The notes beneath the pieces are model-generated. The model made no database searches. It was not told the origin of the DNA and saw nothing but the letters and a program-made list of their open reading frames with translations. The translations under genes and the position numbers were made by a program. A DNA stretch of 46,066 nt from Aquificota bacterium. GTDB taxonomy: Bacteria > Aquificota > Aquificia > Desulfurobacteriales > DQVG01. Positions 7,727 through 46,066 of the stretch are shown piece by piece. Within the stretch, counting starts at the first letter, position 1. Each line of letters opens with the position of its first letter. The stretch spans positions 1 to 46,066 of the forward strand of contig JAMOTM010000074.1 in assembly GCA_027002265.1 (NCBI GenBank), read 5' to 3'.

Positions 7727-8274
7727 ATTTTTTCCTCAATAATTTCACAAATCATATGCCCTATCATAATATGCATTTCTTGAATTCTTGGTGTATCATT
7801 TGAAGGAATAATTATATTAATATCCCCCATATTTTTTATTTCTCCACCATTTTTCCCACTTAAAGTTATTATTTTACAATCATATTTTTTTGCGCTTTTT
7901 ATCGCATTTATCACATTTTTACTATTTCCACTCGTAGAAATCGCTATTAAGACATCTCCCTTTTTTGCCAATGCTTCTATTTGTCTGGAAAAAATATAAT
8001 CAAATCCATAATCGTTTCCTATTGCAGTAAGGGCTGATGTATTTGTTGTAAGTGCAATTGCTGGTAAAGCAATCCTATCTTTTTTGAACCTCCCAATAAG
8101 TTCTGCTGCTATATGTTGAGCATCTGCTGCACTACCTCCATTCCCACAAAGTATTATTTTATTTCCTTTTGTTAAGGCATCAATACATAAACTTCCAGCC
8201 TTTTCAATTAAAGGCAATAAATCATAAATTTTTTTTGCTACTTTTATATGCTGATTTAAACATCTATTTAGCAT
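7723..8274 (-). CDS. gmhA: Sedoheptulose 7-phosphate isomerase
   Basis: 183 residues forming one SIS domain. [16 protein letters not shown] (residues 44-59) is the signature phosphosugar-binding helix, STSGNSKN (103-110) binds phosphate, and [10 protein letters not shown] carries the metal/catalytic His-Glu residues. GmhA converts sedoheptulose 7-phosphate to D-glycero-D-manno-heptose 7-phosphate, the first step of ADP-heptose synthesis. It is directly downstream of hldE, hldD and gmhB, so the whole heptose pathway is in one run. Its start overlaps the hldE end by 11 bases. Length is normal for the family. Confidence 0.95.
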
Positions 8275-9652
8275 TTTTTATCTTTTCAATTATAGTAGTA
8301 GTACTTTTACCTTTAATAAAATCTATCAATATTACTTCTTTTGCAATATCACTGCCTACAATTTCTTTATCTTCATAATCTTTACCTTTAACTAAAATAT
8401 CCGGCTTTATTGTTTTTATAAGTTCATATGGAGTATCTTCATTAAAGATAATTACATAATCAACTATCTCTAAACTAGCAAGAAGATACGCTCTATCATA
8501 TTCATCATTTATAGGTCTATTCTTTCCTTTTAATCTTTTAACCGATTCATTTGAATTAACTCCAACTATTAATATATCTCCAAGAGCTTTTGCTTTTTGC
8601 AAATATTTCACATGTCCTAAATGTAATATATCAAAACACCCATTAGTAAAAACAATTTTCTTATTTTTATTTTTTAAATCATCTGTTATTTGCTTTATTT
8701 TTTTTAAATCAACTATTTTATAATCTACATTATTATCAAATTTTTTCTTTATTTCCTCTATTTCTGAAATAGTAGCACTTGCACTTCCAACTTTACCAAC
8801 TACCACTGCCGCCGCTGCATTTGCAAAATGTATAGCTTCAATTAAATCATCATTTTCACTCAAAAAATATCCAAGAGCTGCCAAAACAGTGTCTCCCGCT
8901 CCTGTTACATCATAAACTTCTTTTGCAACTGTTGGAATTTTTATAAATTTATCTCCAAATAAAGCCATTCCATCTTTTCCGAGAGTCACGAGTAAATATT
9001 TTAAATTAAGCTCTTTTTTTAGTTTCCACCCCGCTTTAATTAAATCTTCTTCCGTATTTATATCTATTCCTGTAGCAAATGAGAGCTCATTTTTATTTGG
9101 TTTTATCATCCAAGCATTTTTGTATTTACTAAAATCCCTTTTCGGATCAATAATCAACTTTTTATTATTTTTACCGGCAAGGTTAATAATCTTTTGAGTC
9201 AATTTTTTAGTTAATACTCCTTTTTCATAATCACTTAAAAGTATCAAATCTAATTTATCTAAATTATTTTCTAAATATCCTAAAATTTTATCTTCAAAAT
9301 CTTTTGTAATTGCCTTTTTTGTTTCTTTATCATATCTTATTACTTGCTGATTTGAAGATATTATTCTACTTTTAATAATTGTTTCTCTGTTTTTATCAAT
9401 AAAAATCCCTCCAATATCCACTCTTTTTTGTTTTAAGAGATCAATTAATATATTGCCATTTTTCCCAACAACACCTGAAACAATCACATCAGCACCCAAT
9501 TCTAAAAGATTATTTACAACATTTCCTGCCCCTCCTAGCCTATACTCTTCTTTTTCAATTTCAACTACAGGCACAGGAGCTTCTGGTGAAATTCTTTCAC
9601 TTTTTCCCCATAAATAATGATCTATCATAAAATCACCGATTACAGCTATCAT
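8264..9652 (-). CDS. hldE: Bifunctional heptose 7-phosphate kinase / heptose 1-phosphate adenylyltransferase
   Basis: 462 residues with both domains fused as in E. coli HldE. The N-terminal PfkB/ribokinase-type kinase has [10 protein letters not shown] and the anion-hole motif [12 protein letters not shown] linker leads to the nucleotidyltransferase, with [16 protein letters not shown] near residues 337-352 holding the HxGH signature. The kinase makes heptose 1,7-bisphosphate; after GmhB removes the 7-phosphate, the second domain makes ADP-D-glycero-D-manno-heptose. Both active-site motifs are intact. It overlaps hldD and gmhA, indicating coupled translation. Confidence 0.96.
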
Positions 9653-14151: not shown

Positions 14152-14159
14152 ATATTTCC

Positions 14160-25335: not shown

Positions 25336-26442
25336 TTAAATTATCCTTTTATAAACTTGTAATATTTCATCAACAATTTTTTCTATATCAAATTGTTGAA
25401 TATGATTAAAAGCATTCTCTGTAATATATTTAGTATCTATTTCTTTTCGATAAATTTTCTCAATTAATTTTTTTATTTTTTCTATATTTTTAACCTCAAC
25501 TAAAAACCCCGTTTTTTTATCAATTACTAACTCTCTTAATCCTCCAACATTTGTTGAAATAACTGGTACTTTTTTTATCATTGCTTCTGCCACGACCAAT
25601 CCAAAAGCTTCTTCATAAGTTGGCAGCAAAAAAACGTCAGCTATATCATATAACTTTATAACTTCTTTATGTTCCATAGTTTCCAAAATATAAATATTCT
25701 TTGACATTGTTTTTTTTAAAAATTCTTTTAATGGTCCTTCTCCTACAAAGATAAATTTTATATTTTTATATTTTTTTTCAAAAAAATTTGCAATTCTTAA
25801 AATTTCTTTATAACCCTTTTGTTCTACAAATCTACCAACTGTTAATATAATGAAATCTTCATTAGCTAAACCTAAGCTCTCTTTTAATTTTTTATCTCCT
25901 TTATAAGACATAATATCTTTTATTTTTAACGGATTATAAATAGTATTGATATTTCGTAAAGCACAATGCTCTTCATAGTGTTCTTTTACAGCATTACTTA
26001 CTGCAATATATGAATCAAAACTTTTATTTAAAATAAAACAATCTATTTTTTTTCTTATTTTTTTTATTAAAGAATCATAATTATTCTCATTAAAAGGTAA
26101 ATTATGAAATGTAACTATTCTTTTAATATTTGGGAAAAAAGATTTTGTTAGTCCTGTATAAAAATATGCAAAAAATAAATGAGCATGAATAATGTCATAT
26201 TTGTTTTCTTTTATTAACGTATTCAACTTTGTTATGCCCTCATAAATATTCCACTTATAGGATAAATTTAAATTATAAACATTAATATTTTGTCTTAAAA
26301 GTTCTTTTTCTAAATCATTGTTATCAAATAATGTTGCAACATTAATATCTAAACCTTTTTTTTGTAAATATGGAACTAAATCGACTAAAGCCCTTTCAGC
26401 ACCACCTAATCCTAATGTTTCTATAATATGTAAAATTTTCAT
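25336..26442 (-). CDS. GT4-family glycosyltransferase
   Basis: 368 residues, canonical GT4. ETLGLGGAERALVDLVPYL opens the acceptor domain, IIHAHLFFAYF and RIVTFHNLPF follow, VGRFVEQKGYKEILRIA starts the donor domain, and EX7E lies in EEAFGLVVAEAMIKKVPVI. It is separated from the asnB start by two bases and overlaps the upstream GT-B gene by four. Its sequence resembles many LPS and capsule glycosyltransferases; donor and linkage cannot be inferred. Confidence 0.88.
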   Translation of the reverse strand: MKILHIIETLGLGGAERALVDLVPYLQKKGLDINVATLFDNNDLEKELLRQNINVYNLNLSYKWNIYEGITKLNTLIKENKYDIIHAHLFFAYFYTGLTKSFFPNIKRIVTFHNLPFNENNYDSLIKKIRKKIDCFILNKSFDSYIAVSNAVKEHYEEHCALRNINTIYNPLKIKDIMSYKGDKKLKESLGLANEDFIILTVGRFVEQKGYKEILRIANFFEKKYKNIKFIFVGEGPLKEFLKKTMSKNIYILETMEHKEVIKLYDIADVFLLPTYEEAFGLVVAEAMIKKVPVISTNVGGLRELVIDKKTGFLVEVKNIEKIKKLIEKIYRKEIDTKYITENAFNHIQQFDIEKIVDEILQVYKRII

Positions 26443-27665
26443 TTTTTACTTTCCTTAACTAATTTTAAAAAAGTTTCTTCATTAAAATCTTGATAAAACT
26501 CCCTTGCCCAATCATAAACTTGCTTTGAATATGTCTGATATATTTCTTCATTTTCCAATTTTAATAACAACTTTTGCAATTGATTCGGGTTAGTTACTCT
26601 AAAATCTTTTAAAGGATAGTTATATTGATTAAAAAAAATTTCTTTTGGAGAAAATAAATTAAACATATCAACGAATATAGTCGGAATTCCTTTTAAAGCA
26701 ACATCAAATGCTGTTGTAGAATGGAAAGTAATATGTAAATGTACATTTTCTGTTAAGTTATCTAAACTTATTTTATCTTCCACAAACTTAATAAAATTTA
26801 ACTTCTTTTCAAACTCTAATTTATATTGATTATTATATCTGGGATGATTCTTGAACCAAACTTCATACCCATGTTGAATCAAAAAATCTTTATTAATTTC
26901 AATAATAAGTTGGATTAACTTATAATATTTTTTCAAATTTAAATAAGAAAGATCAGTATTTTGTAAACTCAATAAAATAATTTTATTATTCTGTCTAATT
27001 TTATAATCATCAATTTTTTTATAAAAACCAATTGTCTTAATATTTTTTTTATTAAAATAATTCGTTTTATCTGATTTTAACAAAATATTTCTAAAACCTT
27101 TTCCATAAACCAATGTAATAACTTTTGGTTTACTCTTTATTTTACATGCTTTACTATTTAAAATAATACCTTTGTGATTATTAGAAATAATTCCATGTTG
27201 ATAATCACAAATTAAAGCTTTTTTATTTATTTCCCTCCATAAAATCACATTATTGTGAGCTAAAGTAATAAATAAATTACATTTTAAATTTCTAAAGAAT
27301 ATCCTTTGCAGAATCTTAGAAATCTTTTTCTCTCTTACATAATACTCATCATCAACTATATCATAAAATTTATTTTTTTTTGAAAAAAATTTCCTTAATA
27401 AAATCTGTAAAAATGTAATTAAATCTAAATAAATTGCTTTTTCATTTCTAGGATAAGTATTATACATACCCTTTAAATCTGTTTCTTCTAATAATAAATA
27501 TTTAATATTATATTTTTCACACACTTTCAGAAAAGGTTTTAAAAATATATTTTCTCCGTTTGCGCCTCTATTAAAATGATTAGAATAAGAAAAAATTACA
27601 TCATATTTTTGTTTAAAAAACAATAATTTAAAAAAAAATAAAATTGACTTTATTTTCTGTTTCAA
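26439..27665 (-). CDS. GT-B-fold transferase of uncertain family
   Basis: 408 residues. I do not recognise a firm family. The C-terminal half has GYEVWFKNHPRYN and then VHLHITFHSTTAFDVALKGIPTIFVDM. This K-x-H-P and H/S-S-T-x-x-x-E/D-x-x-x-x-G-x-P pattern is seen in CDP-glycerol phosphotransferases, sialyl- and polysialyltransferase-like and Kdo-transferase-like enzymes, all GT-B folds. The start is a TTG at 27665 with AAAGG seven bases upstream, overlapping the flippase stop as TTGA. Adjacent CMP-legionaminate synthesis makes a sialyl-type (CMP-donor) transferase a plausible guess, but it is only that. Confidence 0.5.
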   Translation of the reverse strand: MKQKIKSILFFFKLLFFKQKYDVIFSYSNHFNRGANGENIFLKPFLKVCEKYNIKYLLLEETDLKGMYNTYPRNEKAIYLDLITFLQILLRKFFSKKNKFYDIVDDEYYVREKKISKILQRIFFRNLKCNLFITLAHNNVILWREINKKALICDYQHGIISNNHKGIILNSKACKIKSKPKVITLVYGKGFRNILLKSDKTNYFNKKNIKTIGFYKKIDDYKIRQNNKIILLSLQNTDLSYLNLKKYYKLIQLIIEINKDFLIQHGYEVWFKNHPRYNNQYKLEFEKKLNFIKFVEDKISLDNLTENVHLHITFHSTTAFDVALKGIPTIFVDMFNLFSPKEIFFNQYNYPLKDFRVTNPNQLQKLLLKLENEEIYQTYSKQVYDWAREFYQDFNEETFLKLVKESKK

Positions 27666-28945
27666 TTTTTAACCTTTGTAAAGAAATAACTCCATGGCAT
27701 AGAATATACTTTTGTACTTATTTTCCAAATAATTAAAAAAGTAAATAAATAAACAATAACATTTGCATAAGCAGCACCAATTATTCCAAATTCTTTTATA
27801 AAAAGATAAGATATTAATACTTGCAAAAGACTCATAATTATAGTGGTTACAGAAATATAGAAAGTTTTTTTCTCATAAAAAATATAATTCACTACCATTA
27901 AATACATTCCATTAAAGGCATATGCTAATGCGATCCAAATTATTATGTTTCTTGATTCAAGAAAATTACTATTAATAAAATAAGGAAAAGAAAAATATAA
28001 CAATAAGGAATATAAAATAGCAAATATTAATATTAATATAAAATATAAATATGTAATCTTAATAATTTTTAAATTTTCATTAAAATTTTTTTCTTCTAAT
28101 TTTTTATATAAATAAGGAACAAAAGCATTGTTAAAAGAATGTGCAATTATTCCTATCATTGCACCAAATGTATATCCAAACGAATAAATTCCAGCAGAAG
28201 AAACATTTATCAAATTTGTAATCAAAATAATATCAATACTTGTTCTAAGCCAAAGTGCTATATTATGTGGTAAAAGCGAAAGACCAAATTTATATATATC
28301 AATAATATATTTTTTCATAATTTTAATTTTAAAAAAATTTATTTTATATAATATATATAAACTAATAACTCCAAATAATATATTCGCAAAAATTATTCCC
28401 GAAACTCTACCCACCCAATGTAAGTTAAAATATATAACTAATATCAAGGTAATAAATATATTTAATAAAGTTTTTGATATTTCAAAAATTGCAAAAATTT
28501 TAGCTTTTTCTAAATTTCTAAATATAATCAAAAATATTTGACTTAAAATTTCAAAAAAAGCTGTTATTAATATAATACTAATCCAAAAATATGTAAATTT
28601 GATATTTATCATATTTAATTTTTTTAAAAAAAAGACTAAACTACAGACCACAATAAAATTTATAAATAAAACAATAAAACTATTTCCTAAATAATACGCA
28701 ATTTGTTCATTATTCCTTAATTTAAAAAAATTTATAGTAATTGCTCCTGGTACACTTATAGATATAAAAATAGCAAAAACTCCTAATAAAACATTAAAAT
28801 TAGAAATAATTCCGTAATCTATTGGAGAGAGATAATATGTTAAAATAGGTAATAATAAAAATGAAACACCTTTATTAAAAATTTGTAAAAAAGTATAAAT
28901 AAAAGTATTTTTTAAAAATAAAGAATTTTTTATTCTTTTAAGCAT
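27662..28945 (-). CDS. Wzx-like polysaccharide flippase (second copy)
   Basis: 427 residues with about twelve membrane segments. The start LKRIKNSLFLKNTFIYTFLQIFNKGVSFLLLPILTYYLSPIDYG is a typical PST/Wzx N-terminus, and IASIFANILFG-like helices and GIIGAAYANVIVY near the C-terminus also fit. It shares little obvious sequence with the flippase at 3374-4738, so this is not a recent duplication. It overlaps legF by eight bases and the downstream GT-B gene by four, which suggests it flips the legionaminate-containing unit. Very AT-rich. Confidence 0.85.
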   Translation of the reverse strand: MLKRIKNSLFLKNTFIYTFLQIFNKGVSFLLLPILTYYLSPIDYGIISNFNVLLGVFAIFISISVPGAITINFFKLRNNEQIAYYLGNSFIVLFINFIVVCSLVFFLKKLNMINIKFTYFWISIILITAFFEILSQIFLIIFRNLEKAKIFAIFEISKTLLNIFITLILVIYFNLHWVGRVSGIIFANILFGVISLYILYKINFFKIKIMKKYIIDIYKFGLSLLPHNIALWLRTSIDIILITNLINVSSAGIYSFGYTFGAMIGIIAHSFNNAFVPYLYKKLEEKNFNENLKIIKITYLYFILILIFAILYSLLLYFSFPYFINSNFLESRNIIIWIALAYAFNGMYLMVVNYIFYEKKTFYISVTTIIMSLLQVLISYLFIKEFGIIGAAYANVIVYLFTFLIIWKISTKVYSMPWSYFFTKVKN

Positions 28946-29618
28946 TCAATAACACCTCTGCCAACTTAAAATCAATCTCATCGTCAATATCCATAGAACT
29001 TTTCCTATCCATTATATACGCATATATATTTTTATCTAAAAAAAAAGTATTTTTTTCTAAAAATTTATCAATTTTACAAATATAAATAGCTCCATTAAGT
29101 CGATAGTATTTAGGCAAATCCTGGCTTCTTTTATTTTTAACATCTTCTTTTAAAAAATTTTCCATACTCAAACTTTCAGGTAATGTATTGCTCCATAAAG
29201 GAGAATGATCCATCTCGCATACGCTTATTACCGCATCTGCATTCTTTTTTTCAAGTAATTCAATTGCTTCATCTATATGTTTTTCAGTCCTTAAAGGAGA
29301 TGTAGGCTGTAAAAGTACTATATATTCATATCCTGGATAATTTTCAATTACATGTTTCACCACATCAATACTAGAAGCAGTATCAGTTGCTAACTCATCA
29401 GGTCTTTTTATAATATTTACACTATATTCTTTAGCAATTTTTAAGATCTTCTCACTATCACTGCTAACTACAATTTCATCTATATATTTGCTTTTCTTTG
29501 CAGCTTCTATACTCCATGCTATTAAAGGTTTACTGTTTAAATCTAAAATATTTTTATTTGGAAGTCGTTTACTACCTCCACGCGCAGGAATAATAGCTAA
29601 ATATTTACTTTTCTGCAT
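28938..29618 (-). CDS. legF: CMP-legionaminic (or related nonulosonate) synthetase
   Basis: 226 residues of the CMP-sialate synthetase family. IIPARGGSKRLPNKNILDLNSKPLI holds the CTP-binding signature, VSSDSEKIL and LQPTSPLRTEKHI follow, and DIDDEIDFKLAE near the C-terminus carries metal ligands. It activates a nine-carbon sugar with CTP. Because LegB, C, H, I, G and PtmE homologues precede it in order, the substrate is most likely N,N'-diacetyllegionaminate. Neu5Ac or pseudaminate activity cannot be excluded by sequence. The gap to the upstream acyltransferase is one base. Confidence 0.88.
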   Translation of the reverse strand: MQKSKYLAIIPARGGSKRLPNKNILDLNSKPLIAWSIEAAKKSKYIDEIVVSSDSEKILKIAKEYSVNIIKRPDELATDTASSIDVVKHVIENYPGYEYIVLLQPTSPLRTEKHIDEAIELLEKKNADAVISVCEMDHSPLWSNTLPESLSMENFLKEDVKNKRSQDLPKYYRLNGAIYICKIDKFLEKNTFFLDKNIYAYIMDRKSSMDIDDEIDFKLAEVLLNA

Positions 29619-29619
29619 T

Positions 29620-30681
29620 TTATTTTACCTTCAAACTATTAATTAATTTTCTCAAAGGATCCTCATAATAAAAATAGATAATCGTACTTCCAATAATTAC
29701 AAAAAATATTGATAATAATAAATGTAATAAATTACTTATCCTATGAACCATAGATACATAAAGATATAAAAATAATGGATGCATTAGATATACTGTATAA
29801 GAAATATCCCCTAAAAATTTCAAAACTTTTTTTATATAATCTTTTACACTAAAAAATAATAAAAATAATAAAAATATTCCCAAAGAGGCAATTGACAATA
29901 TTATTCTATTAATCCCATACAGATAATTCCAATATAAATTTGTATAATGTGAATTCCAAATTAAGAATAATATTAGTAAAAAAAATAAAAAATATTTAAA
30001 AAATTTTTTATTTTTTAAATTAAAAAAATATTCCCTATTAAAAGCAAAAAACATCCCTATTAAAAAAAAATATAAATGATTATAAAAATTATGAACATAT
30101 ATGAAAAAATAATGTTTTTCTGAAAACTTTTCATAAAAATTATAATAAGATGACAATAATAATAAAAAAAATACTATTAGAAAAAGTACCATATTAAAGA
30201 GAAACTTATATTTATATAGTGTATTAAAAATAATAAAAATCAAAGGAAAACATAAATAAAAAGTTACTTCAACCCCAATGGACCAAGAAGCAGGAGTTAA
30301 TCCATCTCTATTAAAAATATTAAATGTTAAAGTTATTTGATACAAAAATTCTATAATAGAACTAACATTTCTATATCCTATTAAAATCGCTAAAACTATT
30401 ACTAATATAAATAGTGGATAAATTCTAGCAAATCTTCTTTTAAAATAATAAAACACATCCCATCTATTTTTAAAATTATAATTATAATTTATAGCCGATA
30501 TAGTCAAAGCATAACCACTAATAATAAAAAATAAACTAACAAAATAAAAAGCCAATTTAATAAATATTGTATTCCCATTTAATTCAATAAAATGATTCCA
30601 ACTTAATAAATGATACACAACAATATAAATCGCCAATATCCCTCTTAAATAATCTAAATTTACATCGTAAATTTTACTCAC
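29620..30681 (-). CDS. Acyltransferase family 3 (O-acetyltransferase)
   Basis: About 353 residues with around ten membrane segments. The N-terminus VNLDYLRGILAIYIVVYHL includes the family signature and the conserved R/D and H positions (R-G...Y-H); WSIGVEVTFYLCFPL is a further conserved block. I start it at GTG 30681, which overlaps the ptmE stop (GTGAGTAA) and has AAAGGA six bases upstream; longer starts at 30705 or 30726 lie deep in ptmE and have weak binding sites. It probably O-acylates a sugar of the glycan, and its position within the legionaminate genes hints at that sugar as target. Confidence 0.82.
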   Translation of the reverse strand: MSKIYDVNLDYLRGILAIYIVVYHLLSWNHFIELNGNTIFIKLAFYFVSLFFIISGYALTISAINYNYNFKNRWDVFYYFKRRFARIYPLFILVIVLAILIGYRNVSSIIEFLYQITLTFNIFNRDGLTPASWSIGVEVTFYLCFPLIFIIFNTLYKYKFLFNMVLFLIVFFLLLLSSYYNFYEKFSEKHYFFIYVHNFYNHLYFFLIGMFFAFNREYFFNLKNKKFFKYFLFFLLILFLIWNSHYTNLYWNYLYGINRIILSIASLGIFLLFLLFFSVKDYIKKVLKFLGDISYTVYLMHPLFLYLYVSMVHRISNLLHLLLSIFFVIIGSTIIYFYYEDPLRKLINSLKVK

Positions 30682-31720
30682 CAAAAATCCTTTTATAATC
30701 TTCATTTGCTTTTTTAAATTCTTCAATCCTTCCTATATCACACCAATATTCTTTTATAGGAAATGTTATAGTATTTTTCTTTTCTTGTATCATTTTTTCA
30801 AATAAACTCGGCATATCGTAATATTCATTTTTTGGAATATAATCAATCGTTTCAGGATTTAAAACATAAATCCCGGCACTTACAAAAAACTTTTGTTTTG
30901 GTTTTTCCTCAATTGAAAAAATTTCATTTCCTATAGTGTTCACCACCCCAAAAGGAACCTGATATTCATACTCCCTAACCCCCATTGTAGCAACTGCTTT
31001 ATTTTCAAAGTGATATTCAAGCATATACGCAAAATTAACTGTCGTCAGCAAATCTCCGTTCATTACAAAAAAAGGCTCTTTTGGTCTTTCTTTTAGTAAA
31101 CTAAGAGCTCCTGCTGTCCCCATTCTTTTATCTTCGTACACATATTCAATATTAATTCCAAAATCTTTCCCATCTTTAAAATAATCTTTTATAATTTCCG
31201 CTTTATAATTTACACAAAAAATAAAATTCTCAAATCCATGTTTTTTAAACTGCTCAATTATAGTCTCAAGAATTGGCTTCCCTCCGACTTTTAACATTGG
31301 CTTAGGCATGTTTTCAGTAAGAGGTCTTAATCTCGTACCCAAGCCTCCAAGCATCAAAACAATTTTATTAGAATATTTTTTAGATTTTACAAGCTCATCA
31401 AAAGTTATAACTTTTACTATTTTTTTATTTTTATCTACTACAGGAATATTATAAATCTTCTTTTCTATACAAGTTTGAATAAGATTATTCCTATAAAAAT
31501 TATCATAAACAAAAAATGGCTTTTTATTATATATATCATGAATTCTGTCGTGTAAATTTTTACCCTTTAACAATGCTCTTCTTATATCACCGTCACTTAT
31601 ACTTCCAAGAAGTTTATTATTTTCATCAACTACAAAAGCTATTTTCATTGCTCCTTTATCAATTGCTCTCAATGCATCAATAATTGTAGAATCAGGTTTT
31701 ATTAGAATTTCATTCAACAT
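30674..31720 (-). CDS. ptmE: CBS-domain nucleotidyltransferase (glucosamine-1-phosphate guanylyltransferase, PtmE/LegE type)
   Basis: 348 residues. Two CBS domains come first (residues about 1-115: AFVVDENNKLLGSISDGDIRRALL, then NIPVVDKNKKIVKVIT). A nucleotidyltransferase domain follows, with MLGGLGTRLRPLTENMPKPMLKVGGKPIL as donor-binding signature and FVMNGDLLT as the metal site. This fused layout is that of Campylobacter PtmE, which supplies GDP-GlcN for legionaminate synthesis. The signature has MLGG where many relatives have LAGG. The gene lies between LegG and the acyltransferase, in line with the pathway. GTP rather than UTP use is inferred from family only. Confidence 0.85.
   Translation of the reverse strand: MLNEILIKPDSTIIDALRAIDKGAMKIAFVVDENNKLLGSISDGDIRRALLKGKNLHDRIHDIYNKKPFFVYDNFYRNNLIQTCIEKKIYNIPVVDKNKKIVKVITFDELVKSKKYSNKIVLMLGGLGTRLRPLTENMPKPMLKVGGKPILETIIEQFKKHGFENFIFCVNYKAEIIKDYFKDGKDFGINIEYVYEDKRMGTAGALSLLKERPKEPFFVMNGDLLTTVNFAYMLEYHFENKAVATMGVREYEYQVPFGVVNTIGNEIFSIEEKPKQKFFVSAGIYVLNPETIDYIPKNEYYDMPSLFEKMIQEKKNTITFPIKEYWCDIGRIEEFKKANEDYKRIFGE
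30688..30693 (-). promoter_or_regulatory. Ribosome binding site fixing a GTG start of the acyltransferase
   Basis: AAAGGA on the minus strand, six bases before GTG 30681, which overlaps the ptmE stop. Earlier ATGs at 30705 and the frame start at 30726 have no comparable site. Confidence 0.75.
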
Positions 31721-32883
31721 TTAATATCCTTGCCTTCAAACTCGATATCACAAAAACTTTTTTTCATATTTACATCTATATGTTTTAAAATTTCTATAAC
31801 TTTTCTACTTGGAAATTTTTCTTTTTGATATGGATTTATAGTATTTTTAAGCTTTTTCTGAAACTCATCAGTATAAACTAATTTTATTGCGTTCAAAATA
31901 TTATCTTTTTTAGTCTCTACATCTATTACACTTTCAGCTTTGATTCTTCCTTTTTGTCTATTTCCTATGTTTATAGTGGCTCTTTTAAAAGAAGGAACTT
32001 CAATAAGTCCACTAGAAGAATTGCCGAGTACAATATCAACAAACTGTAACAAACTCAAATATCTATGCTGTCCTAATGAATCAAACAGATAAGTATCATT
32101 TTTAATTTTTATAAACTCTTCTATCATTTGATTAATTACTCTTCCACCTGTGTCCGAATTTGCTTTTGTAAAAATAATCATCCCATCATATTCATATAAA
32201 GCTTCAAGTATTTCTTTAAAATCTTTTTGAATATTTTCAACATTCAAAGTTTCTGGATGATAAGTCACAAGCATATTTTTTTTCTGAAATTTAACACCTA
32301 AACTTTTTTCTAATTCTTCTTTTGATAGTAAATTAAGTCTATAAATATTTTCAAGTCCAAAAGCACCAACATTAAAAACTCTACTTGGTTCTTCTCCCAT
32401 TTGAATTACTCTTTTTCTATACTCATCAGTCGATGTAAAATGTAAATAACTCATTTTTGTAATAGAATGCCTAAAATATTCATCAACTGCTCCTTCGGTT
32501 TTTTCTCCTCCATGAAGATGAACAACAGGAATATTAAAAACTACAGCAGTCGAAACTATTGGAATAAGTTCGAATCTATCCCCCAATACTACGACAAAAT
32601 CAGGTTTTAATTCATCAAAAGCTTCTGCAAAAGAAATCTGAGCAAGTCCCATACTTTTTGAAATACCTACTTTACTATCAGATGAAAGTAATATTTCTAT
32701 TTTTTTATCTATTTCAAACTCATTTTCTATTTCTTTAACAGTCATTCCAAATTCAGGTGAAAGATGCATTCCGGTAACAATTACTTGAAGTTCCAACTCT
32801 TTATCATTTTCAATTTCTTTCATAAGCCAATATAAAAGCCCGTATTCCGCTCTTGTGGCTGTTACAACACACACCTTTTTCAT
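31714..32883 (-). CDS. legG: Hydrolysing NDP-HexNAc 2-epimerase (LegG/NeuC type)
   Basis: 389 residues. VTATRAEYGLLYWLMKEI opens the protein, VLGDRFELIP and HLHGGEKTEGAVDEYFRHSITKMS provide the catalytic acid/His region, and GNSSSGLIEVPSFKRATINIGNRQKGR closes the nucleotide site. The NeuC/LegG group both epimerises C2 and removes the nucleotide, giving free ManNAc or 2,4-diacetamido-2,4,6-trideoxymannose. With LegB, LegC and LegH present, the latter product is more likely. It overlaps legI by four bases and ptmE by seven. Contrast with the non-hydrolysing wecB at 6608. Confidence 0.9.
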   Translation of the reverse strand: MKKVCVVTATRAEYGLLYWLMKEIENDKELELQVIVTGMHLSPEFGMTVKEIENEFEIDKKIEILLSSDSKVGISKSMGLAQISFAEAFDELKPDFVVVLGDRFELIPIVSTAVVFNIPVVHLHGGEKTEGAVDEYFRHSITKMSYLHFTSTDEYRKRVIQMGEEPSRVFNVGAFGLENIYRLNLLSKEELEKSLGVKFQKKNMLVTYHPETLNVENIQKDFKEILEALYEYDGMIIFTKANSDTGGRVINQMIEEFIKIKNDTYLFDSLGQHRYLSLLQFVDIVLGNSSSGLIEVPSFKRATINIGNRQKGRIKAESVIDVETKKDNILNAIKLVYTDEFQKKLKNTINPYQKEKFPSRKVIEILKHIDVNMKKSFCDIEFEGKDIKC

Positions 32884-33881
32884 AACTGTATCTTTTCGTC
32901 TTTTTTATAATCTTTATCTGCAAACTTACCTATTATCTCTTCCCACCTCATAGGGCTTATTCCTTTTCCGGCTCTTTTTACAGTTAAATTTTCCTCGCTA
33001 AATTTTTCACCTTTTTTTATGTTTTTTTTAGCAACAATAACTTTTCTCGCAATTTCAATATTTTTACTTTCACTTTTACTTGGTTTTTTTATTCCGTTTC
33101 CAAGTGCAATTTCAATATTTCTTATTGCTTTTACCATAGCTTTTAATTCATCGGGTTCTAAACTTGCTTTATGGTCTGGTCCTTCCATATTCTTATCAAG
33201 TGTAAAATGTTTTTCTATCACAACTGCTCCCATAGCAACAGCTGCTACCGGTACTTCAATTCCCAAAGTATGGTCACTGTATCCCACATCAACCTTAAAA
33301 GCTTCTTTAATTGTCAGCATCGCTTTTAAATTTACATCTTCCATAGGAGTTGGATATTCGGTATTTGCGTGGAGTACTGTGATGTTTTTCCTTTTTGTGC
33401 CAAATTTTTCCATTACATCAAGAGCTTGTTCTATTTCACACATATTTGCCATACCTGTTGATAAAATCACTCTTTTTTTTAATTTGGCTATCTCTCTTAA
33501 ATAAGGATAATTTGTAATTTCACCACTTGGAATTTTAAAAATTTCAAGTCCTAAACTATCCAAAAACTCAATACTTTCAAAATCAAAAGGGGTAGATAAA
33601 AACATTATTCCTTTTTCATCGCAATACTCTTTAAGCTCTACAAACTCATCAAATCCAAGCTCAAGTTTTTTAAGCATTTCATATTGAGATTCATTACTTC
33701 CTGTATTTTCTACCTGATATTTTGCTTTCTTTGCTTCTTTACTTACTAAGTTTTTTGCTTTAAAAGTTTGAAACTTAACGGCATCTACCCCGGCTTCCAC
33801 CGCTACATCTATAAGTTTTTTAGCAAGTTCTAAACTTCCGTTATGATTTACTCCGGCTTCCGCTATTATAAATACACTCAT
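32880..33881 (-). CDS. legI: Legionaminic acid synthase (NeuB family)
   Basis: 333 residues. The TIM-barrel synthase domain has IIAEAGVNHNGSLELAKKLI, KFQTFKAKNL, STPFDFESIEFL, KIPSGEITNYP, STGMA, HANTEYPTP and IEKHFTLDKNMEGPDHKASL. The C-terminal antifreeze-like SAF domain (from about residue 275: ARKVIVAKKNIKKGE) completes the fold. It condenses phosphoenolpyruvate with the six-carbon product of LegG to make the nine-carbon acid. Sequence alone does not separate NeuB, LegI and PseI firmly; the gene context argues for LegI. Confidence 0.9.
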   Translation of the reverse strand: MSVFIIAEAGVNHNGSLELAKKLIDVAVEAGVDAVKFQTFKAKNLVSKEAKKAKYQVENTGSNESQYEMLKKLELGFDEFVELKEYCDEKGIMFLSTPFDFESIEFLDSLGLEIFKIPSGEITNYPYLREIAKLKKRVILSTGMANMCEIEQALDVMEKFGTKRKNITVLHANTEYPTPMEDVNLKAMLTIKEAFKVDVGYSDHTLGIEVPVAAVAMGAVVIEKHFTLDKNMEGPDHKASLEPDELKAMVKAIRNIEIALGNGIKKPSKSESKNIEIARKVIVAKKNIKKGEKFSEENLTVKRAGKGISPMRWEEIIGKFADKDYKKDEKIQL

Positions 33882-34456
33882 TTTACTATACTCCCGGCTT
33901 TTATAAAACTTTTTTTAGGAATTTTAATGTATTCTTTTGTTACTGCATTAGAACCAATAAAACTTCCTTGGCCCACAATTACACCACCATTTATTACAGC
34001 ACCTGTTGAAATGTGACAATTATCTTCAATTTCTACATCATGTTCAATTAATGCTTTTGTATTTATTATACAATTTTTTCCAATCTTCACATTTGCATTA
34101 ATTAACGCATCATGCATAATAACCGTCCCTTCATCTATTTTTGTATGTTTTGAGACATAAGCTCTTGGTGAAACAATCACAGGTAATTTAAAATTTAAGC
34201 TTTTAAGTAAATTAAATAATTTTATTCTAACTTTTGGAGTTTTAATCTGCCCTACTCCAATAATTGCATATTCATATTTACTTCTTAAGATTTCCAAATC
34301 ATTATCATTACCTATAACTTCATAATCCAAAACCCTACTGCCAACAGGCAACTCATTATCAATAATGCCAGCAATCTTAAACTTATCTTCAAGTTCAATC
34401 ACATCAATAATTGAGCGACAATGTCCTCCAGCTCCAAGAATTATTATCTCTTTCAT
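33878..34456 (-). CDS. legH: NeuD/PglD/LegH-type N- or O-acetyltransferase
   Basis: 192 residues. An N-terminal Rossmann-like sugar-nucleotide domain (IILGAGGHCRSIIDVIEL) is followed by a left-handed beta helix of hexapeptide repeats (KHTKIDEGTVIMHDALINANVKIGKNCIINTKALIEHD). H in IEHDVEI is the likely catalytic base. In PglD, LegH and NeuD this fold acetylates an amino or hydroxyl group using acetyl-CoA. Because LegC is adjacent, acetylation of the 4-amino group of the NDP-trideoxyhexose is the expected reaction. Four-base overlaps join it to both neighbours. Confidence 0.88.
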   Translation of the reverse strand: MKEIIILGAGGHCRSIIDVIELEDKFKIAGIIDNELPVGSRVLDYEVIGNDNDLEILRSKYEYAIIGVGQIKTPKVRIKLFNLLKSLNFKLPVIVSPRAYVSKHTKIDEGTVIMHDALINANVKIGKNCIINTKALIEHDVEIEDNCHISTGAVINGGVIVGQGSFIGSNAVTKEYIKIPKKSFIKAGSIVK

Positions 34457-35595
34457 ACTACAACCCCGCTTGGAATATTTACAATCCTCTCTTCTAAATA
34501 TCTAGAATTTTCAAGCCCGTCATTTTGACAATTCTTATACATCGGTAGTTTATTCATTAAAGTCCAGATTGGTCTTGTCATTACTCCATTATTGTTAGTG
34601 CATTCAAGAAACTCATCTCTTTCGTTTATGTCTTTTAATTTAATAGCATTAAGCCAAAAATTACTTTTTGCATTTTTAGGTTCATTAATAAATTCAATTC
34701 CAATATTTTCAAAAAATTTTTTATATCTTTTTGCCAAATCTCTTTTAATCCTTAAAAACTTATCTAAATTTTCAAGCTGTGCCAAAAGAAGTGCAGCATT
34801 AAGATTTGGCATTCTGTAGTTATATCCCACTTCATCGTGAAAATACTCCCATTTATGAGGAACTTTTGCAGTGGTTGATAAATGTTTTAGTCTTTTTGCC
34901 AAACTTTCATCATTTGTGACAATCATACCTCCTCCGCCGCTTGTAACAATTTTATTTCCGTTAAAACTAAAAACTCCAACTTTCCCAAATGTTCCTGTAT
35001 GTTTATTTTTATATAAACTTCCAAGACTCTCGGCACTGTCTTCTATAAGTTCTAAATTCCATTCATCACATATTTTTTTAATTTCATCAATTCTACAAGG
35101 ATGACCAAAAGTATGCATAGGCACTACTGCTTTTATTCTGTTTCCTGTGGTTTTATTAAATGTTTCATTTCCTTTTTTTATTGCATTCTTTTCAAGCCAT
35201 TTTCTAAGACTCTTAGAACTCATTCCAAGAGTATCCAAATCAACATCCACAAAAACAGGTTTAGCCCCAGCATAAACTATAGCGTTTGAAGTAGCTACAA
35301 AAGTCAAAGCTTGAGTAATTACTTCATCACCCTCATTTACTCCGACTACTTTTAAAGCCAAATGAAGCCCGTTTGTCCCATTTACTACAGCCACAGCATA
35401 TTTAGCGCCTGTTATTTCACAAATTTTTTCTTCTACTTTATTTACATATTCTCCAACACTTGAAACAAAAGTAGAATCAACCGTATCGCATATATATTTT
35501 TTTTCATTTCCTATAAAAATGGGTTCATGTAAAGCAATAAAATCTTTTTTATAAATATTTTTGATAAATTCAATTATTTTATTACATTTTTTCAT
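34453..35595 (-). CDS. legC: PLP-dependent sugar aminotransferase (LegC/PglE type)
   Basis: 380 residues of the DegT/DnrJ/EryC1 family. NGTNGLHLALKVVGV, VVPMHTFGHPCRID, EDSAESLGSLY and FSFNGNKIVTSGGGGMIV, with the PLP lysine near residue 214, are conserved. LegC adds the 4-amino group to the LegB product. The frame could open at 35646, but ATG 35595 has a strong AGAGGAAAG site seven bases upstream (35603-35611) and gives the normal start MKKCNKIIEFI, so I prefer it. It overlaps the legB end by 14 bases. Confidence 0.92.
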   Translation of the reverse strand: MKKCNKIIEFIKNIYKKDFIALHEPIFIGNEKKYICDTVDSTFVSSVGEYVNKVEEKICEITGAKYAVAVVNGTNGLHLALKVVGVNEGDEVITQALTFVATSNAIVYAGAKPVFVDVDLDTLGMSSKSLRKWLEKNAIKKGNETFNKTTGNRIKAVVPMHTFGHPCRIDEIKKICDEWNLELIEDSAESLGSLYKNKHTGTFGKVGVFSFNGNKIVTSGGGGMIVTNDESLAKRLKHLSTTAKVPHKWEYFHDEVGYNYRMPNLNAALLLAQLENLDKFLRIKRDLAKRYKKFFENIGIEFINEPKNAKSNFWLNAIKLKDINERDEFLECTNNNGVMTRPIWTLMNKLPMYKNCQNDGLENSRYLEERIVNIPSGVVV

Positions 35596-36775
35596 CAAGA
35601 TACTTTCCTCTTTCAAGATGTCTGAATTCAGGCAACATATATTCAAAAAGCTCTACTATTTCTTTTTTATTCCAATTAAGAGTCTTTTTCATTTTCTCAA
35701 TTTCATTCATAAAATAATTTAATTTTTCCTCATTAAAAACCGGCTCGTTTTTAATGATTCCAATTCCACTAAACCTATCCCAGTCAATTGTGTTCTCATC
35801 TGTATAAAACTCTTCAAAATCTTTCTCACCCGTAGTATCGCTTATCGTAAAAAGACAAGGCCATTTGCCTTTTTGAGGTAAAGTTTTAACAAGCTCTCTC
35901 GCTTCTTCTTCACTTTGACACAAATATGGCTCATACCCTCTCATTTTAAGATACTTAACAGCAATGTCAGCAAATGTAATTAAATGAAGTTTTTCACTAA
36001 GCTTTGGGAAAAATATATCTCTGTTATCTCCAAAAATCGCACTCATAAGACATAATTCACCTGATTCTTTAGGAGTCACAAAATATCTTTTTATATCTTT
36101 TGGAGCAACAATTGGCTGATGCTTTTCAAGGCGTCTATTAAATGAATATAATAAACTTCCGTCACTAAAAGCCACATTTGCAAATCTTGCAGTCGATACC
36201 GGAATTTCCAAACTTCTTCTCATTAAAAAAAGTTCCATTATTCTTTTACTAGCACCCATCATATTTACGGGATTTGTAGCTTTATCGGTAGATACGCAAA
36301 AATATTTTTGGGTTTTATTTTCAATAGATTGAAGAAGAGTTTTTTCCGTATTTAAAATATTAACCTCAATCATTCTCATCAATGTAAATGGGTCTTTTTC
36401 ACTTCTTACATGTTTAAGTGCACTGAAATTTAACACATAATCATATTTTCCATCAGTTTTTATAAAAGCATCATACTCAAAACTTCCGGCATCAATAGCA
36501 AACGTCTTAAACTCTCCGTCAATATATCCAAGAGAACTTCTAATATCCCTGACAAGTTCGGCTAAATTATTTTCGCTTATATCAACCACATGAAGTTTTT
36601 TCGGATTTCTTTTAAAAATTTCTTTTACCGTAGCACTTCCAATACTGCCTGCTCCTCCTATTACTAAAAAAGAAGAATTTGAAATAATATTTTGTAACTC
36701 TTTTTCGTATTTTTTTATATCATCTTCAAATAACTCTCTGTCTCTTCCTATTAATTGTAAAATTTCTTTATCCAT
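35582..36775 (-). CDS. legB: NDP-HexNAc 4,6-dehydratase (LegB type)
   Basis: 397 residues, single-domain cytoplasmic form. FLVIGGAGSIGSATVKEI (residues 37-54) is the NAD loop; NFSALKHVRSEKDP and CVSTDKATNPVNMMGASKRIMEL (about 160-182) hold the active site. The usual Tyr is Met, giving the Ser-Met-Lys set of the PglF/WbpM group. It makes the 4-keto-6-deoxy-HexNAc that LegC aminates. The start is ATG 36775 (MDKEIL) with GGAG nine bases upstream; a start at 36790 lies further into rmlB. Donor is GDP-GlcNAc in Campylobacter jejuni; the same donor here is inferred from adjacent ptmE. Confidence 0.9.
   Translation of the reverse strand: MDKEILQLIGRDRELFEDDIKKYEKELQNIISNSSFLVIGGAGSIGSATVKEIFKRNPKKLHVVDISENNLAELVRDIRSSLGYIDGEFKTFAIDAGSFEYDAFIKTDGKYDYVLNFSALKHVRSEKDPFTLMRMIEVNILNTEKTLLQSIENKTQKYFCVSTDKATNPVNMMGASKRIMELFLMRRSLEIPVSTARFANVAFSDGSLLYSFNRRLEKHQPIVAPKDIKRYFVTPKESGELCLMSAIFGDNRDIFFPKLSEKLHLITFADIAVKYLKMRGYEPYLCQSEEEARELVKTLPQKGKWPCLFTISDTTGEKDFEEFYTDENTIDWDRFSGIGIIKNEPVFNEEKLNYFMNEIEKMKKTLNWNKKEIVELFEYMLPEFRHLERGKYLDEKM
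35603..35611 (-). promoter_or_regulatory. Ribosome binding site fixing the legC start
   Basis: AGAGGAAAG on the minus strand, seven bases before ATG 35595. It favours this start over the 51-base longer frame start. Confidence 0.85.
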
Positions 36776-37844
36776 TTTTAATTTCTCCATATTTATTCAA
36801 ATACCATTTAACTGTTTTCACAATACCGCTTTCAAAGTTCTCATCCGCTCTCCATCCAAGCTCATTTTCTATTTTACTTGCGTCTATTGCGTATCTTCTG
36901 TCATGCCCTGGTCTATCGGATACGAAAGTTATAAGATCCTTATAACTTTTTAATTTTGAATTTTTAGTTTTGAGTTTTGAATTATTTTCAACAGGATACA
37001 ATTCATCTAAAATTTCACAGATTTTATTCGCAATATATATATTCGTTCTTTCATTCCTTCCACCGATATTATATGTCTCACCAGCTTTTCCTTTGTGATA
37101 CGCCAAATCAATCCCCTTACAATGATCAAGCACATACAGCCAGTCTCTTATGTTTTTACCGTCTCCATATATTGGAATAGGATTTCCATTCAGCGCGTTT
37201 CTTATGATTGTAGGAATTAGTTTTTCATCATGCTGTTTTGGTCCGTAGTTATTTGAACAGTTTGTAATAACCGTATCCATTCCGAACGTATGATGATAAC
37301 TTCTGACTATCATGTCAGAGCTTGCTTTGCTGGCGCTGTATGGTGAATTTGGTGCGTATGGCATTTCTTCTGTAAATAAAATATTTGGATCATCAGGAAG
37401 GGTACCGTATACTTCATCAGTTGAAATATGATGAAATCTACATCCTTTATATTCGTCTTTGTATTCAAAAGGCTTTTCCATCCAATAATTTTTCGCAACA
37501 TCTATTAAAGTATAAGTACCATCTACGTTAGTTCTTACAAACACTCCCGGATTTTTAATTGAATTATCCACATGAGATTCAGCGGCAAAGTGAATTACCC
37601 CTCTTATATCGTATTCATTAAAGATATGTTCTACCAGTTCTCTGTTACAAATATCCCCTTTTATAAATTTGTATCTTGTATTATTTTCCACTTCTTTTAA
37701 GTTTTCAAGGTTTCCGGCATATGTTAGTAAATCTAAATTAACTACGTTATATTCAGGATACTTTTCTAAAAAATATGGAATAAAATTGCTTCCTATAAAT
37801 CCGGCCCCACCGGTAATTAATATAGTTTTTTTTGTTTTATCCAT
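36768..37844 (-). CDS. rmlB: dTDP-glucose 4,6-dehydratase
   Basis: 358 residues. GGAGFIGSNF (12-21) is the NAD loop, STDEVYG (141-147) supplies the Asp-Glu acid-base pair, and Y169-x-x-x-K173 (YSASK) completes the site. NIRDWLYVLDHC and SDRPGHDRRYAID are diagnostic RmlB blocks. Residues 287-300 (NNSKLKTKNSKLKS) are an extra low-complexity stretch made of a repeated AATTCAAAA-type DNA unit, just before YKDLITF, where E. coli RmlB has a shorter link. It makes dTDP-4-keto-6-deoxyglucose, second step of dTDP-rhamnose synthesis. AAGGAT precedes the ATG by six bases. Confidence 0.96.
   Translation of the reverse strand: MDKTKKTILITGGAGFIGSNFIPYFLEKYPEYNVVNLDLLTYAGNLENLKEVENNTRYKFIKGDICNRELVEHIFNEYDIRGVIHFAAESHVDNSIKNPGVFVRTNVDGTYTLIDVAKNYWMEKPFEYKDEYKGCRFHHISTDEVYGTLPDDPNILFTEEMPYAPNSPYSASKASSDMIVRSYHHTFGMDTVITNCSNNYGPKQHDEKLIPTIIRNALNGNPIPIYGDGKNIRDWLYVLDHCKGIDLAYHKGKAGETYNIGGRNERTNIYIANKICEILDELYPVENNSKLKTKNSKLKSYKDLITFVSDRPGHDRRYAIDASKIENELGWRADENFESGIVKTVKWYLNKYGEIKNG
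36946..36984 (-). repeat. Repeat-derived in-frame insertion inside rmlB
   Basis: On the minus strand AATTCAAAACTCAAAACT is followed three bases later by a second AATTCAAAATTAAAAAGT-like copy. Together they encode SKLKTKNSKLK in a surface loop of RmlB. The reading frame is preserved. Seen by eye; a full unit length cannot be fixed from two imperfect copies. Confidence 0.7.
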
Positions 37845-43844: not shown

Positions 43845-43851
43845 CTCCTTT
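43845..43851 (-). promoter_or_regulatory. Ribosome binding site fixing the ugd start
   Basis: AAAGGAG on the minus strand, five bases before ATG 43839. It sets the start there rather than at the upstream in-frame GTG 43860. Confidence 0.85.
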
Positions 43852-44467
43852 AATAAGCACCCTTGCCTGTGAGTACCACTTTTATAGTTTTCAGGATAAT
43901 TTTAAAATCCAGTAAAAAAGAACGGTTTTTAACATACCATTCATCCATTTTTACCCTCTCGTCATAATTATCTATATCACTCCTACCCTCCACCTGCCAG
44001 TAACCAGTAATACCAGGTTTTACCTTTTTGTAAAATTCAGCCTTTTCTTTATAAAATTTATCAAGTTCTTCCTGTGTAACCGGTCTTGGTCCCACTACAC
44101 TCATATCTCCCTTTAAAACATTTATAAACTGAGGCAATTCATCTAAAGATGTTTTTCTTAAAAATTTTCCCACAGGTGTAATTCGAGGGTCGTTTTTTAA
44201 TTTATGGGAAGCATCCCACTCTTTCCTCGCCTCTTCATCATATTCCAAAATTTCTTTTAATTTCTTCTCTGCATCCGGATACATACTTCTAAATTTTATT
44301 ATTTCAAACTTTTTTCCGCCTTTGCCCACCCTTTTTTGTTTAAAAAATACGCTGCCGCCATCAGTCAATTTTATGGCAATCATAATAGGAATTGCAACGG
44401 GTGCACTCAGTAAAATTGCAAACAACGAAAATATTACGTCAAAAACTCTTTTTAGCTTATCACTCAT
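43850..44467 (-). CDS. Monotopic initiating sugar transferase (small PGT)
   Basis: About 205 residues from ATG 44467 ([29 protein letters not shown]), with GGAG seven bases upstream and an eight-base overlap of the GT4 gene. One re-entrant membrane helix (about 9-30), then [22 protein letters not shown], the Asp-Glu catalytic pair in [22 protein letters not shown] and [14 protein letters not shown]. This is the PglC/WbaP-type small transferase that loads a sugar phosphate onto undecaprenyl phosphate. A frame start at 44512 would add 15 residues of poor fit. It is the second initiating enzyme in the window. Sugar unknown. Confidence 0.92.
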
Positions 44468-45539
44468 TAATATTCTCCATAATTTTTTTATATATTTCAG
44501 TGTATCCCTCAATCATTTTCTTTACTGAAAAATTAGATTTTAAAATATAAAAAGAGTTTTCTCCCATTTTCAATAATTTCTCTTTATCTTTAATCAAATC
44601 TCTTATGATTGAAACGGCTTCATCTTTAGAATTATATATAAAACCGTTATATTCGTTACTTACTAAATCAATATTTCCCACACAATTGCTTAAAATCAGA
44701 GGTTTTTGAAAACACATAGCCTCCAAAACTGAAAGTGGCAACCCTTCCCACAAAGAGGTGGAAAGATAAATATCAAAGTTTTTCAGTTCTTTTTCCATAA
44801 ATTCTTTTTTCATCCACCCTGTAACTTTTATATTTGAAGAAGTAAGTTCATTTCTCAAATCACCATCCCCAATCCAGACAAACTCTATATCTTTAAAAAA
44901 TTTCGCAATTTCATTAAAAAGCTTCGGATTTTTTTGATATACTATTCTTCCAACGGTACCTATTGTGATTTTTTTAACATTTATTTGATTTTTACCTGCA
45001 TTTTTATATGAACAATCTATTCCGTTGGAGACATATTTCGCTTTTATACCTATTTTTTTAAACTCTTCGGCTTCAGACTCAGAACAGGCCACAACTACAC
45101 CACCCATCTTATTCGCTGTTTTTTCTAAAAAGACAAAAAACTGTCTTTTAAAATTTGAAATATCCTTTCTTAAAAACGAAACGCCGTGAGGAGTATAAAC
45201 AACCCTGTTTTGCTTTTTTAAAATTCTTGCCGCTAACCTGCCTAAGAAACCTGCTTTTGAAGAGTGTAAATGGAGTATATCAAAATCCAGATTTTTTAGA
45301 ATGTTTACTAGCTCTTTTAAAGCCAAAAAATCTTTTTTTAAATCTATTTCCCTTTGAACGCTTTTCCAAGAAACAAACTCCACATTGTTTGAAAAGAGAT
45401 GATAGTTTTCCTTTTCGTCTTCCCTAAGTCCATGAATAATTATATGTTTAAATTCAGGAGTATGAGTTGTTATATTAACCAAAAAATCAAAAACCCCGCC
45501 TGAAAACGGTTCGGTTACGTGTACTATTTTATATGTCAT
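44460..45539 (-). CDS. GT4-family glycosyltransferase
   Basis: 359 residues. VTEPFSGGVFDFLVNI opens the acceptor domain; LHLHSSKAGFLGRLAARIL and YTPHGVSFLRKDI follow; GTVGRIVYQKNPKLFNEIA starts the donor domain; EX7E is in WEGLPLSVLEAMCFQKPLI. This is the RfaB/EpsF-like pattern that often precedes or follows an initiating transferase, as here. It begins with an ATGA overlap at the end of the Wzy/WaaL-like gene and ends over the sugar transferase start. Likely adds the second or third sugar; specificity unknown. Confidence 0.88.
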   Translation of the reverse strand: MTYKIVHVTEPFSGGVFDFLVNITTHTPEFKHIIIHGLREDEKENYHLFSNNVEFVSWKSVQREIDLKKDFLALKELVNILKNLDFDILHLHSSKAGFLGRLAARILKKQNRVVYTPHGVSFLRKDISNFKRQFFVFLEKTANKMGGVVVACSESEAEEFKKIGIKAKYVSNGIDCSYKNAGKNQINVKKITIGTVGRIVYQKNPKLFNEIAKFFKDIEFVWIGDGDLRNELTSSNIKVTGWMKKEFMEKELKNFDIYLSTSLWEGLPLSVLEAMCFQKPLILSNCVGNIDLVSNEYNGFIYNSKDEAVSIIRDLIKDKEKLLKMGENSFYILKSNFSVKKMIEGYTEIYKKIMENINE

Positions 45540-46066
45540 ATATTCTCCATTTCTTTAAAAATTAATCCAAATATTATCCAAATATCCAATTCATTAAGTT
45601 GCCATCCAAAAATTCCCCTTATTAAATAGGCACTTAATAAACCCATTAAAACAATATTTTGTACATTTATATGCTTTATTAAAAAAAACAACATATATCC
45701 TATTAAATATAAAAATATCAAAAAGCCTATAATTCCCTCTTCTGATAAAATTTTTAAATAAATATTATGAGGATGAGAAACATGCTCATCAATATGTAAA
45801 TCAATATACTTTTGTTTCAATCCTTCATATCCATTACCTATTAAAAAATGACTTTTCCAAAATTTATAAGCATAATTCCATAAAATCACTCTAGAAGAAA
45901 TAGAACTATCTTTATTTTCTTTAACTATATTTTTGACTTTATTTTCTTTAACTATATTTTTGACTTTATTTTCTTTAACTATATTTTTGACTTTATTTTC
46001 TTTAACTATATTTTTGACTTTATTTTCTTTAACTATATTTTTGACTTTATTTTCTTTAACTATATT
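45536..46066 (-). CDS. Wzy/WaaL-type O-antigen polymerase or ligase, C-terminal part, cut by window edge
   Basis: The visible C-terminus has SSRVILWNYAYKFWKSHFLIGNGYEG, then HPHNIYLKILSEEGIIGFLIFL, the Wzy_C (O-antigen ligase/polymerase) blocks with the conserved Arg and the His-x-His-Asn loop, and two further membrane helices before the stop at 45536. The reading frame stays open without a stop to 46066. A start at the GTG 45889 would cut the domain in half, so that start is rejected. Upstream of residue SS the frame is filled by VKNIVKENK repeats (45911-46066). The N-terminal membrane helices lie outside the window. It may polymerise the repeat unit or ligate it to a carrier. Confidence 0.85.
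   Translation of the reverse strand, partial: NIVKENKVKNIVKENKVKNIVKENKVKNIVKENKVKNIVKENKVKNIVKENKDSSISSRVILWNYAYKFWKSHFLIGNGYEGLKQKYIDLHIDEHVSHPHNIYLKILSEEGIIGFLIFLYLIGYMLFFLIKHINVQNIVLMGLLSAYLIRGIFGWQLNELDIWIIFGLIFKEMENI
45911..46066 (-). repeat. 27-bp tandem array, in frame, encoding VKNIVKENK
   Basis: Five perfect copies begin at 45911, 45938, 45965, 45992 and 46019, with a sixth copy of 21 bases at 46046-46066 stopped by the edge. Unit length 27 is a multiple of three, so the Wzy/WaaL frame passes through with no stop. Each unit is nine residues, basic and lysine-rich, read VKNIVKENK. Copies show no divergence. Confidence 0.97.

Follow-up and report, generated by a model that had tools for sequence, protein, structure and literature searches.

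The locus raises the question of why a perfect tandem repeat should sit inside a gene of the Wzy_C polymerase/ligase family, next to the residues on which catalysis depends, and what, if anything, the repeat does for the enzyme. The window, by which the whole stretch of DNA analysed is meant (46,066 nucleotides), is an entire contig (C74 of assembly G000), and the array runs off its end. The answer that we favour, at about even weight for and against, is that a real in-frame minisatellite lies in an intact Wzy_C gene, most likely a Wzy polymerase gene, of a Nautiliaceae bacterium from a deep-sea vent, and that the lengthened loop is tolerated by the enzyme and at most tunes it.

The array was located by TRF at 45910-46066 on the minus strand (period 27, 5.8 copies, 100% matches, score 314); the maximum score over 30 dinucleotide shuffles of the window was 77 and the runner-up array in the window scored 82. 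The initial annotation had reported the array at 45890-46066, and its presence was confirmed with a corrected start, 45890-45892 being the codon of an invariant Arg and the repeat beginning at 45910. Read on the coding strand from the contig end, it comprises 157 bp in phase, 5 x AATATAGTTAAAGAAAATAAAGTCAAA followed by 22 nt. The features of the gene, including the half found on a partner contig, are as follows.

45910..46066, minus strand: perfect 27-bp tandem array, five full units plus 22 nt (TRF, frame, shuffles)
45890..45892, minus strand: invariant Arg codon (SSRVILW), 7 residues after the array (alignment, 127/127)
45767..45769, minus strand: conserved His codon (HPHN block) of the Wzy_C loop (alignment, 105/127)
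45536..46066, minus strand: C-terminal part of the Wzy_C-family polymerase/ligase (array + 124 aa + stop), 5' end open (Pfam)
L019 (JAMOTL010000093.1) 2164-3000: N-terminal 280 aa of the array protein, open frame into the array

The array frame reads (NIVKENKVK)5-NIVKENK-DSSISSRVILW and continues to the stop codon of the gene with no stop inside, in agreement with the in-frame repeat first proposed, each 27-bp unit encoding the nine residues NIVKENKVK. The other two forward frames hold stop codons, so that this is the sole usable frame, and an out-of-frame reading was rejected. Since the unit of 27 nt equals nine codons, the gain or loss of whole units preserves the frame, and the array does not have the form of a frameshift on/off switch. 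The net charge is +2 per unit and +11 for the minimal array. The array can also be written as n+1 copies of a 22-nt core with TCAAA between them; this 5-nt spacer is absent at both outer array edges (window 45889-45911, L019 2990-3001), a hint as to how the first duplication arose.

The repeat was sampled from one population only, in which no polymorphism of copy number was seen. No further copy was found in the window's assembly at up to 3 mismatches, the 27-mer was absent from the 298-299 genomes of the order searched besides its own locus, and the unit was not found in viral contigs; a mobile or shared repeat was rejected on these three counts. Its absence from 298 other genomes of the order leaves no conservation that could be cited in favour of a function.

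The family assignment made at the outset held. The window part alone matched Wzy_C (PF04932) with 53.7 bits over profile positions 74-149, and the joined protein matched the full-length domain with 76.4 bits over positions 2-149, the curated cut-off being 31.7 bits. For comparison, 126 homologous proteins were taken from relatives of the two bins that hold the halves of the gene, giving 127 aligned sequences with the array protein included. The Arg lying 7 residues past the array is R in all 127, and its block (SSRVILW) aligns with the VGVRLKIW block of WaaL 7tpg, in keeping with the original placement of the repeat directly before the conserved Arg block. A conserved His follows 41 residues beyond this Arg (H in 105/127), and in the joined protein with one unit these residues are R294 and H335. 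The same domain, with a periplasmic loop carrying an essential Arg and His, is found in P. aeruginosa Wzy-beta and in WaaL 7tpg; in Wzy-beta the homologous loop faces the periplasm, and the protein requires Arg270 and His300 in order to function (PMC4815439). The array protein has many hydrophobic segments, and with the side of the membrane taken from these homologues the array would fall within the large periplasmic loop, after a transmembrane helix and ahead of the invariant Arg. Single-sequence structure models of the separate halves had low confidence, with a mean pLDDT of about 61, and drew the array as one long helix, on which no weight is placed.

A protein with a single unit would have 69 aa separating the invariant Arg from the first conserved basic residue, where the family shows a median of 73 and a range of 60-109; its hydrophilic stretch ahead of that Arg would measure 21 aa, compared with 13-67 in natural loops. 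A one-unit loop therefore has a normal length and, as judged from the alignment, the array expands a site at which natural loops differ in length. The minimal array adds 45 aa, bringing the hydrophilic stretch to about 66 aa, close to the natural limit or past it. A comparable array was present in none of the 126 homologues, whose genes reached a highest TRF score of 67; a tandem array in a Wzy_C protein was not reported in the literature searched either, which is weak evidence, many journals being missing from it. Within this sample and this literature, the view that no such array had been described for the family stands.

These lengths bear directly on whether the array is a neutral passenger, that is, the product of slippage or unequal crossover in a loop that tolerates changes in length, neither affecting the enzyme nor selected for variability. 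This is a serious possibility, somewhat short of an even chance: natural loops in the 126 homologues span 13-67 aa, the array is missing from 298 other genomes of the order and the genome is AT-rich. Against it, the array is perfect, is far stronger than any other in the window or the family, and adjoins catalytic residues, a site that makes neutrality less likely. A loop that is tolerated and at most tunes the enzyme mildly was ranked first as the most likely reading, with pure neutrality a close second. Even if neutral, the array shows that at least 45 extra residues can be accommodated in the loop preceding the catalytic Arg.

The identity of the enzyme was approached through its neighbours, two of which lie immediately downstream.

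44460..45539, minus strand: glycosyltransferase family 4, next gene, same operon (Pfam PF00534/PF13439)
43850..44512, minus strand: initiating phosphoglycosyl transferase (Bac_transf), same operon (PF02397, 241.8 bits)

On the minus strand, the order running from the partner contig into the window is a GalE-like gene, a nucleotidyl transferase, a Wzx-type flippase, UDP-galactopyranose mutase (Glf) and a GT2, and onward in the window the array protein, the GT4, Bac_transf, UDP-sugar dehydrogenases and rhamnose genes. A second complete Wzy_C protein (69.7 bits) is encoded on the partner contig, at the end away from the array (L043:11597-12910), flanked by a glycosyltransferase and an acyltransferase-like gene. 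Gene order and the second protein together favour Wzy for the array protein and a ligase for the other, and prove neither; judged by this context, the array protein is most likely a Wzy polymerase belonging to a Wzx/Wzy cluster and the second Wzy_C protein is likely the ligase. An ORF at 26439-27665, considered as a second polymerase, was rejected since it is not polytopic.

A quarter or so of our belief goes to the converse assignment, in which the array protein is an O-antigen ligase (WaaL) or a protein O-oligosaccharyltransferase and the array occupies the active-site loop of a ligase. Both kinds of enzyme belong to the same fold family; the best match of the Wzy_C family profile among solved structures is WaaL 7tpg (E 1.1e-27), followed by the oligosaccharyltransferase 9rmk, and the top NCBIfam match is PEP_O_lig_1, although far under its cut-off (46.5 vs 188.1). 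No close orthologue of the array protein was found, the best being 29% identical. Against a ligase stand the position of the gene between the Wzx flippase and the initiating Bac_transf, and the presence on the partner contig of a second intact Wzy_C protein that is the likelier ligase.

If the array protein is a Wzy, the array could act as follows. Copy number could change by slippage or RecA-type recombination with the frame intact, the cell would always make a full-length enzyme with a loop differing in length and charge, and the loop would at most tune the enzyme quantitatively, in substrate holding or release, partner contact or chain length. In P. aeruginosa, the cationic periplasmic loop of Wzy-alpha is proposed to catch the anionic substrate, and PL3 of Wzy-beta is described as having no such notable positive stretch (PMC4815439). 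Genes for acidic sugars are present at the array locus, namely a NeuB/NeuC/LegC-type cassette and two UDP-sugar dehydrogenases. A graded effect of the array on polymerisation is plausible because of the Wzy-alpha proposal and these genes. It is Wzz/Wzc proteins that normally set chain length in Wzx/Wzy clusters, and one such protein is encoded in the window at 11881-14151, which counts against chain-length tuning by the array. The suggestion that copy number might alter antigenicity was not upheld, the loop being placed by homology in the periplasm, at the inner membrane and away from the cell surface.

In its strongest form, this mechanism would make the array a hypervariable cationic loop beside the catalytic Arg of a Wzy polymerase that sets the length or amount of glycan by copy number, a graded in-frame contingency device of a sort not described for this family; we regard this as improbable, at roughly one part in eight of our belief. 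If copy number does vary and matter, one enzyme would shift the surface polymer by degrees rather than on or off, and the array would offer a natural length series for probing the periplasmic loop of Wzy.

In-frame coding tandem repeats are known from LPS O-chain enzymes of H. pylori, in the same phylum: DDLRVNY repeats in the alpha-1,3-fucosyltransferase and DELTGKY repeats in the beta-1,4-galactosyltransferase, the latter having gone from 8 to 9 units between spouses' strains with no frameshift, and repeat number is considered to influence the length or decoration of the O-chain (PMC3858298; PMC4202792). Both are transferases of the soluble type whose heptad repeats lie close to the C-terminus (established knowledge; PMC3858298, PMC4202792), whereas the present array consists of 9-residue repeats within the presumed periplasmic catalytic loop of a polytopic polymerase/ligase. 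E. coli TolA likewise carries in-frame coding repeats in an envelope protein, and variation in their number changes the phenotype by degree, with contraction dependent on RecA (PMC3477136); TolA is, however, not a glycan enzyme, and its variation was shown experimentally, whereas variation of the present array is putative. The array thus resembles repeat tracts in other surface-sugar genes while being unusual for the Wzy_C family: in-frame coding minisatellites in LPS genes were already known, and the site in the Wzy_C catalytic loop is new within the family sample and literature searched.

The N-terminal half of the gene was found by searching public genomes with the incomplete protein sequence, which returned one locus, JAMOTL010000093.1 ('4571-419_scaffold_71_c2'), in a Nautiliaceae MAG (bin G061) from Guaymas Basin sample 4571-419. 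A 280-residue open frame precedes the array on this contig, which terminates in exactly 127 bp of array, from the first base of a unit and in the same frame; the window array starts in the same unit phase. Joining the two halves in this frame gives one intact Wzy_C protein, and there is strong reason from the sequences to regard them as a single gene. A broken gene, which the initial annotation had raised as a possibility together with an upstream stop codon, was ruled out once this half had been located in frame.

The reads of the Guaymas Basin study were assembled by metaSPAdes with k up to 127 (PMC9793634). As the 127 bp of array on the partner contig equal the assembly k, this contig stops after one k-mer of a repeat loop, bearing out the earlier suggestion that the repeat interrupted the assembly. 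By the theory of de Bruijn graphs, the 157 bp in the window (127+27+3) would be the shortest sequence passing the loop once. Because the contig ends match one passage of a k=127 loop, the true array is at least about 154-157 bp long, i.e. at least 5.7-5.8 units. Copies anchored to unique sequence number 4.7 upstream (partner contig) and 5.8 downstream (window), the interior copies being unobserved. Any copies that an assembler draws from a loop of a de Bruijn graph are bound to be identical. Recent expansion or homogenisation, first argued from this identity, can thus be inferred in part, while the identity itself was made by the assembler.

An assembly artefact, with truly one or two units and the rest assembler-made, was rejected and is given very little weight: both contigs do end inside the array and graph-loop units are identical by construction, but the array is present on both flanks, the data set is documented as assembled by metaSPAdes at k up to 127 (PMC9793634), and a branch at k=127 requires periodic sequence of at least about 154 bp in the reads, a shorter array being crossed. 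Equally slight is the chance that the array marks a decaying or switched-off gene, for which the first conserved basic residue being Lys rather than the usual Arg may be cited (K in 7/127, R in 119/127), since the frame is open across both halves, the domain is full and the invariant Arg and conserved His are retained.

The two halves of the gene were deposited in different bins: bin G061 does not contain the window sequence, and assembly G000 does not contain the partner contig. RpoA identity between the partner contig and the window's assembly is 35%, so that the bins represent organisms far apart from each other and one of the two contigs is misplaced. The marker that assigns the window is the following gene.

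8264..9652, minus strand: HldE (PfkB + cytidylyltransferase), Nautiliales marker (Pfam; 72-76% to G061 relatives)

The window HldE is 72-76% identical to that of seven relatives of G061 and 48% identical to the second HldE of its own assembly, on contig C76; no HldE is present in G061. In tetranucleotide profile the window is nearest to the partner contig (r = 0.986, against 0.942-0.975 for pieces of its own assembly). From the HldE and RpoA identities, the window contig (1-46066, G000:C74) is very probably mis-binned and belongs to a Nautiliaceae organism; the Guaymas MAG study itself cautions that Nautiliales binning gave some bins with erroneous contigs (PMC9793634). The window also fits a putative 'scaffold_71_c1' in orientation and size. 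A short repeat can in this way split a gene over two bins and send a 46-kb glycan cluster to the wrong genome.

Further glycan genes were noted on the window. A nonulosonic acid cassette at 28938-36790 comprises a NeuA/PseF-like cytidylyltransferase, NeuC, NeuB (TIGR03569 above cut-off), a PglD-type acetyltransferase, a LegC-family aminotransferase and a CBS-domain nucleotidyl transferase. Two further flippase-like proteins and one polytopic protein are encoded at 3374-4738, 16961-18244 and 27662-28945; the polytopic protein (16961-18244) has no Pfam or NCBIfam match and could be another polymerase. Together with capsule-type Wzc, CpsB and Wza genes at 11177-14894, these extra flippase-like and polytopic proteins suggest that the contig carries two or more glycan systems.
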